Shown: positions 16,999 through 22,768 of the stretch, piece by piece
How the letters are laid out: each line of letters starts with the position of its first letter
Position numbering within the stretch: position 1 is the stretch's first letter
Source: Actinomycetota bacterium
GTDB lineage: Bacteria > Actinomycetota > Acidimicrobiia > Acidimicrobiales > Ilumatobacteraceae
DNA: 64,000 nucleotides
Reading direction: 5' to 3'
NCBI GenBank assembly: GCA_009702045.1
Contig: WLIV01000001.1
Coordinates: forward strand, 1 to 64,000
Position numbers and translations under genes: made by a program
The notes under the pieces: generated by a model
Told to the model about the DNA's origin: nothing
Databases searched by the model: none
What the model saw: only the letters and a program-made list of their open reading frames with translations

Positions 16999-17049
16999 CA
17001 GCGTGAGGCTAGTCAGCCGTACCCGGTGGAGATCGGCCTGAGGGATTGT

Positions 17050-17064
17050 TACTATGGCGGTAGT
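17050..17064. promoter_or_regulatory. sufB promoter dyad (ACTAT-N4-GTAGT)
   Basis: ACTAT at 17051-17055, GGCG, then GTAGT at 17060-17064 forms a near-palindrome. TACTAT (17050-17055) is also a good -10 hexamer for sufB. The same dyad, ACTAC-N4-GTAGT, lies in the sufD promoter at 20489-20502. A shared operator for an iron-sulfur-sensing repressor is the likely reading. Confidence 0.5.
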
Positions 17065-17094
17065 GCAAATTCCTGCGCCGGATTGGAGCCCGAG

Positions 17095-18498
17095 ATGACG
17101 TCCTTCGACCTCGACCTCAGTAAGTACAACCTGGGCTGGAGCGACACCGACGTCGAATACGCGTTCAAACCGGCCAAGGGTCTGGACCAGGGTGTGGTCG
17201 ACCAGATCAGCTGGTGGAAGGGCGAGCCGCGGTGGATGTCCGACATGCGCCAGCGCAGCCTGCGCACGTTCGAGCGCAAGCCGATGGCCGAATGGTTCGC
17301 GATCAACATGCCCGATATCGACTTCCAGGACATCTACTACTACCTGCGGCCGGCCAACGCCCAGGTCAGCGAGTGGGACGATCTGCCCGAGCAGATGAAG
17401 GCCACGTACGAGAAGTTGGGCATTCCCGAAGCCGAGCGTAAGTACCTCGCTGGCGTCACCGCCCAGTACGAGTCCGAGGTCGTCTTCCACCGCAACCGTG
17501 AAGACCTCGAGCGCCGCGGGATCTTGTTCTGCGACATGGACACTGCGCTGCGCGAGTACCCCGAACTGGTGAAGCAGTACTTCGGCACGGTCATCCCCTC
17601 CGCCGACAACAAGTTCTCCGCGTTGAACACCGCCGTGTGGAGCGGTGGCTCGTTCATCTACATCCCGCCGGGTGTCGAGTGCGAGATGCCGTTGCAGGCC
17701 TACTTCCGCATCAACAGCGAGAACGCCGGTCAGTTCGAGCGCACGCTGATCATCGCCGACGAGGGCAGCCAGGTGCACTACATCGAGGGCTGCTCGGCCC
17801 CGGTGTACACCAAGGATTCGCTGCACTCGGCCGTGGTCGAGATCATCGTCAAGCCGTCAGCCCGTGTCACCTACACGACCATCCAGAACTGGTCGCCGAA
17901 CGTCTACAACCTCGTCACCAAGCGTGCCCGGGTGGAGGCTGAGGGCCACATGGAGTGGATCGACGGCAACATCGGCTCGAAGCTGACCATGAAGTACCCC
18001 AGCGTCTATCTGGTCGGCCCGAAGGCCACCGGCGAAGTGCTCAGCGTCGCCTACGCTGGCGCTGGCCAGCACCAGGACGCTGGCGCCAAGATGGTCCACG
18101 CTGCGCCCGAGACCACCTCCAAGATCGTCTCCAAGAGCATCTCCAAGGACGGCGGCATCACCGCCTACCGCGGCCTCGTGCGCATCGAGGAAGGTGCCTA
18201 CGGCTGCAAGAGCCATGTGCAGTGCGACGCGCTGATCCTCGACGACCAGAGCGAAAGCCGCACCTTCCCGTACATGGAAGTTGGCGAACGCGACGCACAG
18301 ATCGGCCACGAGGCCACCGTCTCGAAGATCGCCGACGAGCAGTTGTTCTACCTGATGTCGCGTGGTCTGTCGCAGGAGCAGGCGATGGGCATGGTGGTCA
18401 ATGGCTTCATCGAGCCGATCACCCGCACGCTGCCGATGGAGTACGCGGTCGAGTGGAGTCGCCTGATCGAGTTGCAGATGGAAGGCTCCGTCGGCTGA
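17095..18498 (+). CDS. sufB: Fe-S cluster scaffold subunit SufB
   Basis: 467 residues. SufB forms the SufBC2D scaffold on which iron-sulfur clusters are built. The N-terminal segment YNLGWSDTDVEYAFKPAKGL and the beta-helix region with FIYIPPGVECEMPLQAYFRIN and VHYIEGCSAPVYTKDSLH are typical. The cluster-assembly Cys is in YGCKSHVQCDALILDD near the C terminus. The ATG is preceded by GGAG at proper spacing, so this transcript has a leader. It is separated from sufD by 2 kb holding two unrelated-looking genes. In many Actinobacteria the SufR repressor sits upstream of sufB; here a metallopeptidase does. Confidence 0.95.
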   Translation: MTSFDLDLSKYNLGWSDTDVEYAFKPAKGLDQGVVDQISWWKGEPRWMSDMRQRSLRTFERKPMAEWFAINMPDIDFQDIYYYLRPANAQVSEWDDLPEQMKATYEKLGIPEAERKYLAGVTAQYESEVVFHRNREDLERRGILFCDMDTALREYPELVKQYFGTVIPSADNKFSALNTAVWSGGSFIYIPPGVECEMPLQAYFRINSENAGQFERTLIIADEGSQVHYIEGCSAPVYTKDSLHSAVVEIIVKPSARVTYTTIQNWSPNVYNLVTKRARVEAEGHMEWIDGNIGSKLTMKYPSVYLVGPKATGEVLSVAYAGAGQHQDAGAKMVHAAPETTSKIVSKSISKDGGITAYRGLVRIEEGAYGCKSHVQCDALILDDQSESRTFPYMEVGERDAQIGHEATVSKIADEQLFYLMSRGLSQEQAMGMVVNGFIEPITRTLPMEYAVEWSRLIELQMEGSVG

Positions 18499-18519
18499 CG
18501 CTGATCGGGGTCGGGTGCC

Positions 18520-19926
18520 TTAGCACTCGACGATGTTGACCGCAACTGGCGCGGGGAGTCGATCGCGGAACGTGACCGCAAGGCCGCCGCGGGCCGTCTC
18601 TTTGTACTTCTCGTGCATATCGCGTCCGGTGTCGCGCATAGTGGCGATGGCCTGATCGAGTGACACCAGGTGTGTGCCGTCGCCGTGAAGCGCGAGACGG
18701 GCGGCGTTGATCGCCTTCATCGCTGCCATCGCGTTGCGCTCGATACATGGCACCTGCACCAGACCGCCGATTGGGTCGCACGTCAGGCCGAGGTTGTGCT
18801 CGAGGGCGATCTCGGCGGCGTTCTCCACTTGTTCCGGCGTGCCGCCCAGCACCTCGGCCAGCCCGGCGGCGGCCATCGCGCAGGCAGAACCGACCTCGCC
18901 TTGGCAACCGACTTCGGCGCCGGAGATGGAGGCGTTCATCTTGAACAACGCGCCGACGGCTGCGGCAGTGAGCAGGAACCGCATCGCTCCGTCGTCGTTG
19001 GCTCCGGGCACGAAGCGTTCGTAGTACATCAGCACGGCGGGCACGATGCCAGCCGCTCCGTTGGTGGGGGCAGTGACCACCCGCCCGCCTGCCGCATTCT
19101 CCTCGTTCACTGCGAGTGCGAACAGGTTCACCCAGTCGAGCGCCGCCAACGGGTCGGCCGGGCCATCCGCGGCGGCCAGCAACGAGCGTTGCAGCGCTGC
19201 TGCGCGTCGCTGCACATGGAGACCGCCCGGCAACTCGCCCTCGTTGCGGCAGCCGCGCTCGACACAGTCGTACATGGCAGTGCGGAGCGCGGTGAGCTCG
19301 AAGTCGATCTCTGCATCGGTGCGCCGCACGCGTTCATTGGCGCGCACGATTTGGCTGATGGGCAGTGCGGTGGCAGCGCACATCGAGAGCAGTTGCTCGG
19401 CTGAGCGGTACTCGTACGGGACGGTGACCGAGGCGGCAATCTCGCGAACCAACTCATCGTCATCCACCACGAAGCCGCCGCCCACGGAGTAGTAGCGGAG
19501 TTCGGCGATCAGTGTTCCCGTCGCCCCGAACGCCTCGAACCGCATTCCGTTCGGATGCCCGGGCAACGTCTCGTCGGCGTGCATCAGCACATCGGCGTTC
19601 GCATCGAACGACACCGGCACCTGGCCCAAGAGCAGCAGCTTCGCGTCCGATTCGATGCGGTGCAGGATGTCGGCGATGTCGTCGGGGTCGATTGACTGCG
19701 GCTCGGCACCGGCAAGCCCGAGGATCACGGCCGGGATCGTGCCGTGGCCGACGCCTGTTGCAGCGAGCGAGCCATAGAGATGTGCTCGTACGCGTTGTAC
19801 TTCGGCGAGCGGGGCGACCTCGGCGCAGCGTTGGAGGAAGCGTCGGGCTGCGCGCATCGGACCCACCGTGTGAGAACTGGACGGTCCGATGCCGATGCGG
19901 AAGAGTTCGAACACGCTGATCGTCAT
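18520..19926 (-). CDS. sdaA: L-serine ammonia-lyase, single-chain Fe-S type
   Basis: 468 residues. It converts L-serine to pyruvate and ammonia using an oxygen-sensitive 4Fe-4S cluster. The opening ISVFELFRIGIGPSSSHTVG and the conserved TAPTNGAAGIVPAVL, GAEVGCQGEVGSACAMA and CDPIGGLVQVPCIERN segments are diagnostic; Cys in the last two are the cluster ligands. Both alpha and beta domains are in one chain as in E. coli SdaA. The gene is inverted between sufB and sufD. Being an iron-sulfur enzyme it is a client of the Suf system, but co-regulation is unlikely given its orientation. Confidence 0.93.
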   Translation of the reverse strand: MTISVFELFRIGIGPSSSHTVGPMRAARRFLQRCAEVAPLAEVQRVRAHLYGSLAATGVGHGTIPAVILGLAGAEPQSIDPDDIADILHRIESDAKLLLLGQVPVSFDANADVLMHADETLPGHPNGMRFEAFGATGTLIAELRYYSVGGGFVVDDDELVREIAASVTVPYEYRSAEQLLSMCAATALPISQIVRANERVRRTDAEIDFELTALRTAMYDCVERGCRNEGELPGGLHVQRRAAALQRSLLAAADGPADPLAALDWVNLFALAVNEENAAGGRVVTAPTNGAAGIVPAVLMYYERFVPGANDDGAMRFLLTAAAVGALFKMNASISGAEVGCQGEVGSACAMAAAGLAEVLGGTPEQVENAAEIALEHNLGLTCDPIGGLVQVPCIERNAMAAMKAINAARLALHGDGTHLVSLDQAIATMRDTGRDMHEKYKETARGGLAVTFRDRLPAPVAVNIVEC

Positions 19927-19986
19927 GGCACGCGGGACTGTAGTGGCCGCAGTGGATGGTCGGTGGCACGGTGCCAGAATGGACGT

Positions 19987-20343
19987 ATGCCCATGCGTCA
20001 GGAGTGCAAGCACTTCGAGAGCCGCACGTACCCGAGCGGCGAAACGGTGCGCAAGTGCGACCTGGATCTCGCGCCGGAGGCGCCGTGGCGCTGCCCAGCG
20101 AACTGCCCAGCGTTCGAACGGCGGATGGACGTTGGCTGGACCTACGGAACCATGGTGTCGCCCAAGACTCCTGACGAGCCGCCAGGACTCGACGACGGAT
20201 CAGCGGCGGCGTTGTTGGACGAGGCGGAGGAGTTCCTGCGCGACGTCGGCCCGCAGGTGGCTGCCGAGGTGCGCGCCGAGCAGGACGCCCTCGACGCTCA
20301 CCGCGGTCGTTCCTGGAAGCGCCTGTTCCGTCGCAAACCCTGA
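19987..20343 (+). CDS. Cys-rich small protein of unknown function beside sufD
   Basis: 118 residues. Four or five Cys fall in the first half: QECKHFES, RKCDLDL and WRCPANCPAFERR. The spacing suggests a metal or Fe-S site. The second half is an acidic helix (AAALLDEAEEFLRDVGPQVAAEV) ending in a basic tail (RSWKRLFRRKP). CAGAAT-like -10 (19975-19980) lies six bases before the ATG, implying a leaderless start. I do not recognise a named family. Its position between sufB and sufD and its Cys pattern make a role connected with iron-sulfur assembly worth testing. Confidence 0.7.
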   Translation: MPMRQECKHFESRTYPSGETVRKCDLDLAPEAPWRCPANCPAFERRMDVGWTYGTMVSPKTPDEPPGLDDGSAAALLDEAEEFLRDVGPQVAAEVRAEQDALDAHRGRSWKRLFRRKP

Positions 20344-20346
20344 CCC

Positions 20347-20399
20347 GTGCGAGTGCCACGCCCCCGGTGCGAGTGCCACGGCCCCGGTGCGAGTGCCAC
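20347..20399. repeat. Three tandem 20-bp repeats
   Basis: The 13-mer GTGCGAGTGCCAC occurs at 20347, 20367 and 20387, an exact 20-bp period (about two helical turns), with C-rich spacers. A near-complement (GTGACACTCG) lies at about 20438-20447, so the last repeat could pair with it as a hairpin after the Cys-rich gene. The stretch between this gene and sufD otherwise holds only the sufD promoter. Confidence 0.6.
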
Positions 20400-20488
20400 C
20401 GGTGCACCCGAGTGGGAGCTGACACGCTGGGTGACGCGTGACACTCGAAAGCCGGTGGGCGACGGTCCCGAGCGACGTGGGGATTAAC

Positions 20489-20507
20489 ACTACGGGCGTA
20501 GTAGAAT
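20489..20507 (+). promoter_or_regulatory. sufD promoter with ACTAC-N4-GTAGT dyad
   Basis: The dyad ACTAC/GTAGT spans 20489-20502 and runs into a -10 hexamer TAGAAT (20502-20507). The GTG start is seven bases later, with no Shine-Dalgarno sequence, so transcription should begin at the start codon. A bound repressor would cover the -10. Confidence 0.55.
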
Positions 20508-20514
20508 TGCACTC

Positions 20515-21648
20515 GTGTCTGCGCTCCTGACCCACGCCGTCGATCCCGCAGCAGCCGAGCGCGCTGCGGCGATGACGCTCCCATCTCCCGACCAAGAAGT
20601 GTGGCGTTACAGCCGCATTGCCGAACTCGACCTCGCCTCCTATGCGCCAGCGGCCGTGCGCACGACGATCTCCGGTGCCGACTCGCTGCTCGTCGCCGAC
20701 CCGTCGCTGGTGGCCGAGCTCGTCGCTGGAATGACCGTGCACGATGTGTTCGACGAGTTGAACGCCGCCTACCAACACACGGTGGCCATCAGCGTGCCTG
20801 CCGGCAAGGTGCTGGCTGAGCCGATCGTGATCACTCACCACATCTCACTCGAGGACAATGGCCGGGCGCTCTACCCGCGCTTGGTGATCCATGGCGGTCA
20901 GGACAGCGAGTTCACGGTGGTCGAGCGCTTCGAGTCGCACCCCGATGTGGATGCGCTGATCGTCCCTCGCCTGGTGTTGCACGCTGCGCAGGCTGCCCGC
21001 GTGTCGTACTTGGGCATCAACCTGTTGGGCGACAACGTCTGGCAGCTGGGCCACCAGCAGGCCACCGGCGAACGCGACAGCACTACGTTGCTGGCCACGG
21101 TGGCACTGGGTGGCGACTACGCACGTGTGCGTACCGATGCCCGCCTCGTAGGCCAGGGCGGCAGCACCAAGCAGATCGCGCTGTACTACGCCGACGGCCA
21201 CCAGATGCACGACTTCCGCACGCTGCAGGACCACATCGCGCCGCGTACCTCCAGCGACCTGTTGTTCAAAGGTGCGGTGCAGGACACGGCGAAGAGCGTG
21301 TACACCGGCCTCATCCGCATCCGTGAAGCGGCCAAGGGCAGCGTCGCCTACCAGACGAACCGCAACCTGACCCTCAGCGAGGGGGCGTGGGCCGAAAGTG
21401 TGCCCAACCTCGACATCAGGACCAACGAGGTCAAGTGCAGCCACGCCAGTACGGTCGGGCCGATCGACGACGAGCAGCGTTTCTATCTCGAGAGTCGTGG
21501 GATCCCGCCCGAGGTCGCCGAGCGTCTCGTGGTGCTGGGCTTCTTTGACGACGTCCTGAGCCTGCTGCCAGTGGGCGGTCTGCGGGCCGATTTGCGCACC
21601 CGCGTTGCCGCCAAACTGCAGCGCCGCCTTCCCAAGGCGATTGCATGA
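20515..21648 (+). CDS. sufD: Fe-S assembly protein SufD
   Basis: 377 residues, the partner of SufB in the SufBC2D complex. Typical features are WRYSRIAELDL near the N terminus, a beta-helix core, and the C-terminal RTNEVKCSHASTVGPIDDEQ and FYLESRGIPPEVAERLVVLGFF, which carry the conserved His. The GTG start is leaderless from TAGAAT. It overlaps the Rieske gene by 4 nt and begins the three-gene operon sufD-Rieske-sufC. Confidence 0.95.
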   Translation: MSALLTHAVDPAAAERAAAMTLPSPDQEVWRYSRIAELDLASYAPAAVRTTISGADSLLVADPSLVAELVAGMTVHDVFDELNAAYQHTVAISVPAGKVLAEPIVITHHISLEDNGRALYPRLVIHGGQDSEFTVVERFESHPDVDALIVPRLVLHAAQAARVSYLGINLLGDNVWQLGHQQATGERDSTTLLATVALGGDYARVRTDARLVGQGGSTKQIALYYADGHQMHDFRTLQDHIAPRTSSDLLFKGAVQDTAKSVYTGLIRIREAAKGSVAYQTNRNLTLSEGAWAESVPNLDIRTNEVKCSHASTVGPIDDEQRFYLESRGIPPEVAERLVVLGFFDDVLSLLPVGGLRADLRTRVAAKLQRRLPKAIA

Positions 21649-21971
21649 GCGCCGTCGCCGTCTGCAAGTTGTCCGACCTGGCACCCGGTAGCGCCGCCAA
21701 GTTCCAGGTGGGAGACCGTGCGGTCGCTGTCGTGCGCCTCGGCGACGACGTCTACGCGATCGGCGACATGTGCAGTCATGCCGAGATCTCGCTCGCCGAT
21801 GGTGAAGTGCTGGCCGATGACTGCGAGATCGAATGCTGGAAACACGGCAGTCGCTTCAGCCTGAAGACCGGTGTGCCGCAGACGCTGCCTGCCACGGTTC
21901 CTGTTGCCGTGTACATCGCCCGCGTGGTCGACGGCATGGTGGAGATCGAGACGGAAGGGGCTGCAGCATGA
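21645..21971 (+). CDS. Rieske [2Fe-2S] ferredoxin of the suf operon
   Basis: 108 residues. The Rieske cluster motif is intact: CSH at residues about 44-46 and CWKH about 18 residues later, giving C-x-H and C-x2-H. The rest is the small Rieske ferredoxin fold. Such a gene between sufD and sufC is common in Actinobacteria and may supply electrons for cluster assembly. ATGA overlaps link it to both neighbours. Confidence 0.9.
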   Translation: MSAVAVCKLSDLAPGSAAKFQVGDRAVAVVRLGDDVYAIGDMCSHAEISLADGEVLADDCEIECWKHGSRFSLKTGVPQTLPATVPVAVYIARVVDGMVEIETEGAAA

Positions 21972-22768
21972 GCACGCTGGAGATCAAGGGGTTGGTGGCG
22001 TCGGTCGCCGGTCAGCAGATCCTCAATGGCATCGACCTCACGGTGCGGTCGGGCGAGGTGCACGCGATCATGGGGCCGAACGGCGCAGGGAAGAGCACGC
22101 TGTCGGCCGTCATCATGGGCAAGCCCGGCTACACAGTTCATGCTGGCGAGGTGCTGCTCGACGGTGTCGACCTGCTGACGTTGCCGGCATGGCAGCGGGC
22201 CCAAGCAGGGATGCATCTGGTGATGCAGTACCCGAGCGAGGTGCCCGGCGTGGGCCTTGCCGACATGCTCGCCGAGGCGTACGCCGCGCGCGGCCGCTCC
22301 GTCGAAGGTCTGGCTGCTTCGGTGGCCGACGAGGCCGAACGTATCCACTTCCCGGTGGCCTTGCTCGACCGTTCGTTGAACGTCGACTTGAGCGGCGGCG
22401 AGAAGAAGCGCAACGAGACGTTGCAGCTCGCATTGCTCCAGCCGAAATTCGCGATCCTCGACGAACTCGACTCGGGTCTCGACATCGACGCGTTGCGTGA
22501 TTGCTCGCGCCGCGTGGAGGATGCCACGAACGACACGGGTCCCAATGGTGGGCTCGGAGTGATCGCTATCACGCATTACAATCGTCTGCTCGAAGAACTG
22601 CACCCCGACCATGTGCATATTCTGGTCAAGGGTCGCATTGTTGAATCGGGCGGCCCCGAACTGGCCGACCGCCTCGAGATCGAGGGCTACGAAGCCTTCG
22701 CTGGCGCCGACGCGGCCCCACCCGCTGCGCCGAAGAAGCCCAGCCTCGACGACCTCTTCGCGCTGTAG
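21968..22768 (+). CDS. sufC: SufC ATPase of the Fe-S assembly complex
   Basis: 266 residues, ABC-type ATPase. Walker A is GPNGAGKST, the signature is LSGGEKKRNE (the SufC form of LSGGQ), Walker B is FAILDELDSGLD and the switch His is in ITHYNRLLEEL. The C terminus carries an Ala/Pro-rich extension ending KKPSLDDLFAL. It starts on an ATGA overlap with the Rieske gene. sufS and sufU, which often follow, are absent here; a terminator comes next. Confidence 0.95.
   Translation: MSTLEIKGLVASVAGQQILNGIDLTVRSGEVHAIMGPNGAGKSTLSAVIMGKPGYTVHAGEVLLDGVDLLTLPAWQRAQAGMHLVMQYPSEVPGVGLADMLAEAYAARGRSVEGLAASVADEAERIHFPVALLDRSLNVDLSGGEKKRNETLQLALLQPKFAILDELDSGLDIDALRDCSRRVEDATNDTGPNGGLGVIAITHYNRLLEELHPDHVHILVKGRIVESGGPELADRLEIEGYEAFAGADAAPPAAPKKPSLDDLFAL

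Follow-up and report, generated by a model that had tools for sequence, protein, structure and literature searches.

SufR repressors of iron-sulfur (Fe-S) cluster assembly are known from Synechocystis, Streptomyces avermitilis, Mycobacterium tuberculosis, and Corynebacterium glutamicum. Published SufR sites read CAAC-N6-GTTG (PMC8593673, PMC13421787), and the repeat in S. avermitilis is reported to overlap the −10 element (PMC11995493, which also refers to work on C. glutamicum SufR). For M. tuberculosis, holo-SufR is described as repressing the suf genes and apo-SufR as derepressing them (PMC10848736), and cysteines C203, C216, and C244 are reported as needed for function (PMC6034842). In the open-licence literature searched, no paper was found on Acidimicrobiia together with SufR, or together with a regulon and the iron-sulfur cluster. 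Here we analyze a 64,000-nucleotide stretch of an Ilumatobacteraceae genome of this class (assembly GCA_009702045.1, contig WLIV01000001.1, positions 1 to 64,000; hereafter the window), in which sufB and a separate sufD-Rieske-sufC unit are each preceded by a copy of one palindromic dyad. The published CAAC-N6-GTTG pattern matched twice in the window (10096 and 10353; chance mean, 0.94), in neither case at a suf promoter. We consider it probable (roughly 0.8) that the dyads at 17051 and 20489 belong to a set of four operators through which a single dispersed regulon is controlled, the candidate regulator being a SufR-like protein encoded on another contig (C53) of the same genome.

A palindromic dyad at the promoters of Fe-S assembly genes

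The first-pass annotation had pointed to ACTAY-N4-GTAGT before both units. Both copies are present, ACTATGGCGGTAGT on the sufB side and ACTACGGGCGTAGT on the sufD side; they are the only matches in the window, and 100 dinucleotide shuffles yielded none. Across the 3.65-Mb genome, ACTAY-N4-RTAGT occurred only at 17051 and 20489, and a reversed control pattern occurred at eight places. The conserved element proved longer than first noted: ATTNNNACTAYNNNNRTAGTNNNAAT spans 17045 to 17070 without mismatch and 20483 to 20508 with one, and no further site in the window matched it with three or fewer mismatches (shuffle mean, 0.04). The extended palindrome is approximately ATTNNNACTAY-N4-RTAGTNNNAAT, a 26-bp inverted repeat. 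A chance origin of the dyads is ruled out by the shuffles, the reversed-pattern control, and the whole-genome model search described below. The two operators and the promoter elements that they touch are as follows:

17045..17070 (core 17051-17064), + strand: operator 1, extended dyad before sufB (pattern scan; whole-genome model E-value, 1.2e-7)
17050..17055, + strand: putative −10 element TACTAT within the left arm of operator 1 (read from the sequence)
20483..20508 (core 20489-20502), + strand: operator 2, extended dyad before sufD (pattern scan; whole-genome model E-value, 4.2e-5)
20502..20507, + strand: putative −10 element TAGAAT, sharing the dyad's last T, 7 nucleotides (nt) before the sufD GTG start (read from the sequence)

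We searched the whole genome with a sequence model (R1) trained on 31 sites from other genera, all at sufB, sufD, or sufC2 and none at sufR or mrp. At E ≤ 10, the model returned eight matches, which are both strands of four sites: those before sufB and sufD, a third before sufC2-sufS-sufU on contig C12 (E = 0.005), and a fourth in the sufR/mrp intergenic region on C53 (E = 0.025). The search scored first-look candidates (150 of 389 in this genome), and very weak sites may escape it. By position weight matrix (PWM), the four operators score 22 to 45, compared with 32 to 49 for the training sites. The strict pattern ACTAY-N4-RTAGT proved too restrictive, missing the genome's own sufC2 and sufR sites, whose right arm reads ATAGG, as well as sufB sites at the level of the order (GTAGG); the model or the PWM recovered these. 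Contig C12 carries sufS and sufU beside a second sufC gene, and the SufR-like gene on C53 is divergent from mrp, which agrees with the earlier statement that neither sufR nor sufS/sufU adjoins the locus in the window. That annotation had also proposed a genome scan for the dyad upstream of sufS, sufU, and iron or heme genes; an operator stands before sufC2-sufS-sufU, and iron and heme genes are not among the sites of this genome.

In relatives, the dyad also precedes sufC2 at the head of sufC2-sufS, and at three loci (L019, L042, L047) it lies between mrp and the SufR-like gene. R1 matched 57 of 61 genomes at E ≤ 1. Among the matches listed for these 61 genomes (E ≤ 0.0048), all 88 unique sites are located no more than 250 nt upstream of a suf gene, sufR, or mrp (sufB, 36; sufC2/sufS, 28; sufD, 20; sufR/mrp, 4); 31 sites had trained R1, and two of the 88 (G019, G024) were assigned from gene coordinates. 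The first-pass annotation had taken an equal frequency of the dyad at unrelated promoters as the observation that would speak against its proposal; the sites in the genome itself (4 of 4) and those listed in relatives (88 of 88) are instead confined to Fe-S assembly and sufR/mrp promoters. The four genomes of the set without an R1 match are G025, G051, G057, and G059, of which G057 and G059 nonetheless have SufR. At the level of the order, the sufB operator typically reads GTTACTAT-N4-RTAGGRGAAAT, and 10 of 12 sufB loci score 22 to 35 (G059, 27), the others being G057, with a weak site (10.3), and G055, without an operator. A sufB fragment in G012 showed no operator, and in 3 of the 18 genomes searched, sufB was not matched at E ≤ 1e-100.

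The distant genome G328, from another order, was scanned by PWM over 1.117 Mb (approximately 40%); with its two known sites left out, nothing scored above 8. One of its loci (L309, near position 2892) carries a strong operator copy (PWM score, 39.7) flanked by a ferritin gene on one side and a divergently oriented ABC importer on the other. The importer comprises a substrate-binding protein and a permease, whose nearest NCBIfam models are 2-aminoethylphosphonate transporters, matched far below cut-off. Genomes of the G328 family contain up to 14 motif matches (G327).

The overlap with the −10 region described earlier holds in two ways, TACTAT lying inside the left arm at sufB and TAGAAT sharing the last T of the dyad at sufD. 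Among distinct sites with a PWM score of at least 5, TACTAT lies inside the left arm at 49 of 53 sufB sites, and a TAnnnT touching the right arm, 5 to 9 nt before the start codon, is found at 20 of 22 sufD sites. TAnAAT plus a start codon follows at 56 of 58 sufR sites, and a like arrangement of −10 element and start was seen at 23 of 34 sufC2 sites. The sufD and sufR transcripts, and often that of sufC2, thus look leaderless, as predicted from these spacings. The operator would then lie outside the sufD and sufR transcripts and should therefore act as DNA; an RNA-level role of the dyad is ruled out by its place upstream of the predicted leaderless start of both genes. The overlap fits steric repression, given the predicted −10 assignments and the presumed direction of control.

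A SufR-like protein as the candidate regulator

The protein encoded on C53 has an N-terminal helix-turn-helix (HTH) domain (PF12840, above cut-off; E = 2.7e-9, residues 20 to 68) and a C-terminal match, also above cut-off, to PF18546 ("methanogen output domain 1"). All 28 orthologs compared match TIGR02702 (SufR_cyano) at E ≤ 0.001 (best, 1.8e-11; the genome's own protein, 6.5e-10). Three cysteines, spaced C189-x12-C202-x32-C235 in the genome's own protein, are conserved without exception in 30 genomes (31 sequences, the genome's own entering twice) and in another 43 sequences.

We fetched sufR loci by protein similarity alone (the best 80 of 477, with 47 distinct sites). In every one of the 80, the highest-scoring site of the locus falls no more than 250 nt upstream of the SufR match; scores exceed 10 in 67 of them, and in 79 the core carries one mismatch or none. 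We then compared co-occurrence in 310 genomes of the class with at least 95% completeness (238 from the window's own order and 72 from other orders), at cut-offs that differ among SufR (E ≤ 1e-30), Rrf2 (E ≤ 1e-20), and the motif (E ≤ 0.1). The motif was found in 239 genomes, SufR in 245, and Rrf2 in 249, genomes not listed being taken as the remainder. SufR and the motif were strongly associated (both, 225; motif only, 14; SufR only, 20; neither, 51; odds ratio, 41), within the order (187, 12, 9, and 30; odds ratio, 52) as well as in other orders (38, 2, 11, and 21; odds ratio, 36). The best motif site lies more than 3 kb from sufR in all 100 testable genomes among 122 listed, so this link is not created by the sufR promoter itself. 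The complete genome G025 has neither the motif nor a SufR match at E ≤ 1e-30 (weak ones only), keeps Rrf2, and encodes a different SufB (43% identical; 43 to 44% across G025 and G012, loci L223 and L224). G055 has neither SufR nor an operator at its sufB promoter.

From these data we infer DNA binding by the SufR-like protein, its dimerization, repression, and the signal. The protein would bind the palindrome ATTNNNACTAY-N4-RTAGTNNNAAT as a dimer, covering the predicted −10 element in the case of sufB and the spacer immediately upstream of that element in the case of sufD, sufC2, and sufR, and RNA polymerase would be kept off. When Fe-S clusters are plentiful, a [4Fe-4S] cluster on the three invariant cysteines would bring about repression of sufB, sufD-Rieske-sufC, sufC2-sufS-sufU, sufR itself, and, judging from its position, mrp; repression would be lifted when iron is short or clusters are damaged. 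The proposal of the first-pass annotation, that a shared dyad places the separated units under one Fe-S-sensing repressor, is supported to this extent, with binding, repression, and sensing all predicted.

Several observations weigh against this assignment. The SufR-like protein scores 39 bits against a curated TIGR02702 cut-off of 178.8, and we therefore call it SufR-like and do not place it as a member of that family. No sequence relative of the SufR profile was found in the PDB at E ≤ 0.01, and the AlphaFold model was of low confidence (mean predicted local distance difference test score [pLDDT], 56) and was not used. The genome's own sufC2 and sufR operators each carry a core mismatch, in the ATAGG arm, and have the modest E-values given above. 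The 310 genomes are related, and the counts ignore shared ancestry, such that Fisher P values overstate independence; 14 of them have the motif without a SufR match, and 20 have SufR without the motif. Genome G040 has operators at sufB and sufC2 with a best SufR match of only E = 1.5e-14, and in other orders Rrf2 also tracks the motif (both, 19; motif only, 21; Rrf2 only, 2; neither, 30; odds ratio, 13.6; P = 1.6e-4).

The last two points bear on an alternative that we consider unlikely: that the dyad is bound by the genome's sole true Rrf2 (IscR/RisR-like) protein, encoded on C7, as RisR does in Myxococcus xanthus, where it is reported to bind imperfect palindromes over suf and isc promoters (PMC9973013). 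One Rrf2 protein of the genome is above the Pfam cut-off, IscR is among its NCBIfam matches (below cut-off), and an ortholog is present in 58 of 61 genomes; the motif and Rrf2 occur without a SufR match in 12 of the 310 genomes. Against this, the 16-kb locus around rrf2 contains no operator at the gene (best PWM score, 1.2, more than 3.5 kb away). Over all 310 genomes, Rrf2 is less closely tied to the motif than SufR is (both, 212; motif only, 27; Rrf2 only, 37; neither, 34; odds ratio, 7.2), and within the order its tracking of the motif is not clear (193, 6, 35, and 4; odds ratio, 3.7; P = 0.06) compared with an odds ratio of 52 for SufR. Rrf2 occurs without either SufR or the motif in 29 genomes, and the motif and SufR occur without an Rrf2 match in 25, of which 6 belong to the order and the other 19 may include a diverged Rrf2 that was missed. 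The lack of a site at the gene and the weaker co-occurrence disfavor Rrf2. Of the two regulator types that the first-pass annotation had offered, SufR and Rrf2, the former is thus preferred, on the operator at the sufR promoter, co-occurrence, and the absence of a site near the genome's own Rrf2 gene.

It is similarly improbable that another regulator that travels with SufR, for example of the WhiB or Fur/DtxR type, binds the dyad. Co-occurrence cannot separate proteins that always occur together, and the proteins profiled were SufR and Rrf2; however, the operator stands directly before sufR in all 80 fetched loci, the usual place for an autoregulator, and its half-site spacing is the same as in published SufR sites. 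That the palindrome is merely a conserved promoter sequence (core promoter or alternative sigma factor site) and no operator is very improbable: although it overlaps predicted −10 elements that are themselves constrained, the 26-bp repeat keeps its symmetry while its placement relative to the −10 element and the start differs between sufB and sufD/sufR, and no further promoter of the genome is matched by R1.

Two further observations concern genes near these loci. In G025 (L223) and G012 (L224), a weakly SufR-like gene lies on the opposite strand upstream of SufB (E = 1.4e-6 and 2.7e-9, respectively). In several order-level genomes (for example, G059 contig C279, G044 contig C123, and G049 contig C36), the gene immediately downstream of sufR is cysteine-desulfurase-like.

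Gene content and splitting of the suf locus

The suf region of the window contains the following genes:

17095..18498, + strand: sufB (NCBIfam TIGR01980, 694 bits, cut-off 346; PF01458)
18520..19926, − strand: sdaA, L-serine dehydratase, antisense between sufB and the next gene (PF03313/PF03315)
19987..20343, + strand: gene for a 118-amino-acid (aa) protein with four conserved cysteines (no Pfam or NCBIfam family match)
20515..21648, + strand: sufD (NCBIfam TIGR01981, 224.1 bits, cut-off 222; PF01458)
21645..21971, + strand: Rieske-type [2Fe-2S] ferredoxin gene (PF00355)
21968..22768, + strand: sufC, first of two sufC genes (TIGR01978, 263 bits, cut-off 213)

The gene identities given by the first-pass annotation were recovered, those of SufB, SufD, the Rieske protein, and SdaA by Pfam and those of SufB, SufD, and SufC by NCBIfam above cut-off. 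The reading frames of sufD, the Rieske ferredoxin gene, and sufC overlap, and sdaA has no dyad of its own. The two SufC proteins of the genome, one encoded with sufD (21968 to 22768) and one with sufS-sufU (C12, L140 2580 to 3341), are 51% identical; the SufC model cut-off is exceeded by the SufC of the window and by the G027 ortholog of the second. SufS and SufU of the genome exceed their model cut-offs, and both domains of Mrp were identified.

The gene for the 118-aa protein stands between sufB and sufD both in the window and in each of the 22 tabulated relatives from the same order. Its product matched no family at E ≤ 0.001 in Pfam or NCBIfam. In a comparison of 43 homologous loci, cysteines C7, C24, C36, and C40 were kept in the 40 distinct sequences, apart from one alignment gap at the last two, and the protein may be an unrecognized part of Fe-S assembly. 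Between this gene and the sufD promoter (20347 to 20399), GTGCGAGTGCCAC occurs in three spaced copies. At seven loci of other genomes (L056, L061, L062, L063, L066, L315, and L316), long insertions break the SufB matches near residue 126, in some also near residue 294; that of L315 is in one reading frame (797 aa), and the SufB of the window has none. The insertions are probably inteins.

Six sufB loci from other orders all have the operator before sufB. In four of them, sufB and sufD are 59 to 134 nt apart with no operator at sufD; the other two (G328, G317) have no sufD beside sufB, so that splits of sufB from sufD are not unique to the family of the window. Within the family, five loci with gaps of 290 to 347 nt have no operator at sufD, and an operator is present there in 14 relatives with gaps of at least 362 nt, that of G031 being degenerate. 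At three order-level loci from other families, where the gap is 464 to 1,455 nt, sufD has no operator. The antisense sdaA is shared with G002, G014, and G009, where it likewise lies between sufB and sufD; as in the window, both operators are present in each. Because sufB and sufD are adjacent under a single operator in four of the six other-order loci, both the split and the additional operator at sufD appear to be derived, this operator presumably having been added as the operon came apart. The locus would then exemplify an operon that has split, with a separate copy of the operator at the detached half.

Comparison with known SufR and Rrf2 systems

Together, these results provide a candidate regulator, an operator, and predicted targets for a large class represented mainly by metagenome-assembled genomes. 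We tentatively suggest, as a possibility that we hold to be somewhat doubtful, that a SufR lineage of this class shifted its DNA specificity within an unchanged 4-N6-4 geometry, came to control a dispersed regulon of four units, and in another order became wired to iron handling (G328). If so, Fe-S status would control iron storage, and perhaps iron uptake, in that genome.

Control of several Fe-S assembly operons by a single Fe-S-binding repressor, through a palindrome over the promoter, is also reported for the Rrf2 regulators IscR and RisR (PMC9973013). The candidate here, in contrast, belongs to a different protein family, and the local Rrf2 tracks the motif less closely and has no site at its gene.

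With SufR of Synechocystis, S. avermitilis, M. tuberculosis, and C. glutamicum, the candidate shares an HTH domain and a C-x12-C...C arrangement near the C terminus, although the third cysteine follows at x32 here and at x27 in M. tuberculosis SufR as reported. Also shared are a site over a suf −10 element, a site before sufR, suf genes as targets, and the 4-N6-4 spacing of half-sites. Unlike in those systems, the half-site is ACTA with an outer ATT arm rather than CAAC, sufR is divergent from mrp rather than adjoining suf genes, and the predicted regulon extends over four units that include a second sufC. SufR regulation itself is known; what we would call new is a predicted SufR-like mode of action combined with a distinct operator sequence and a dispersed layout.

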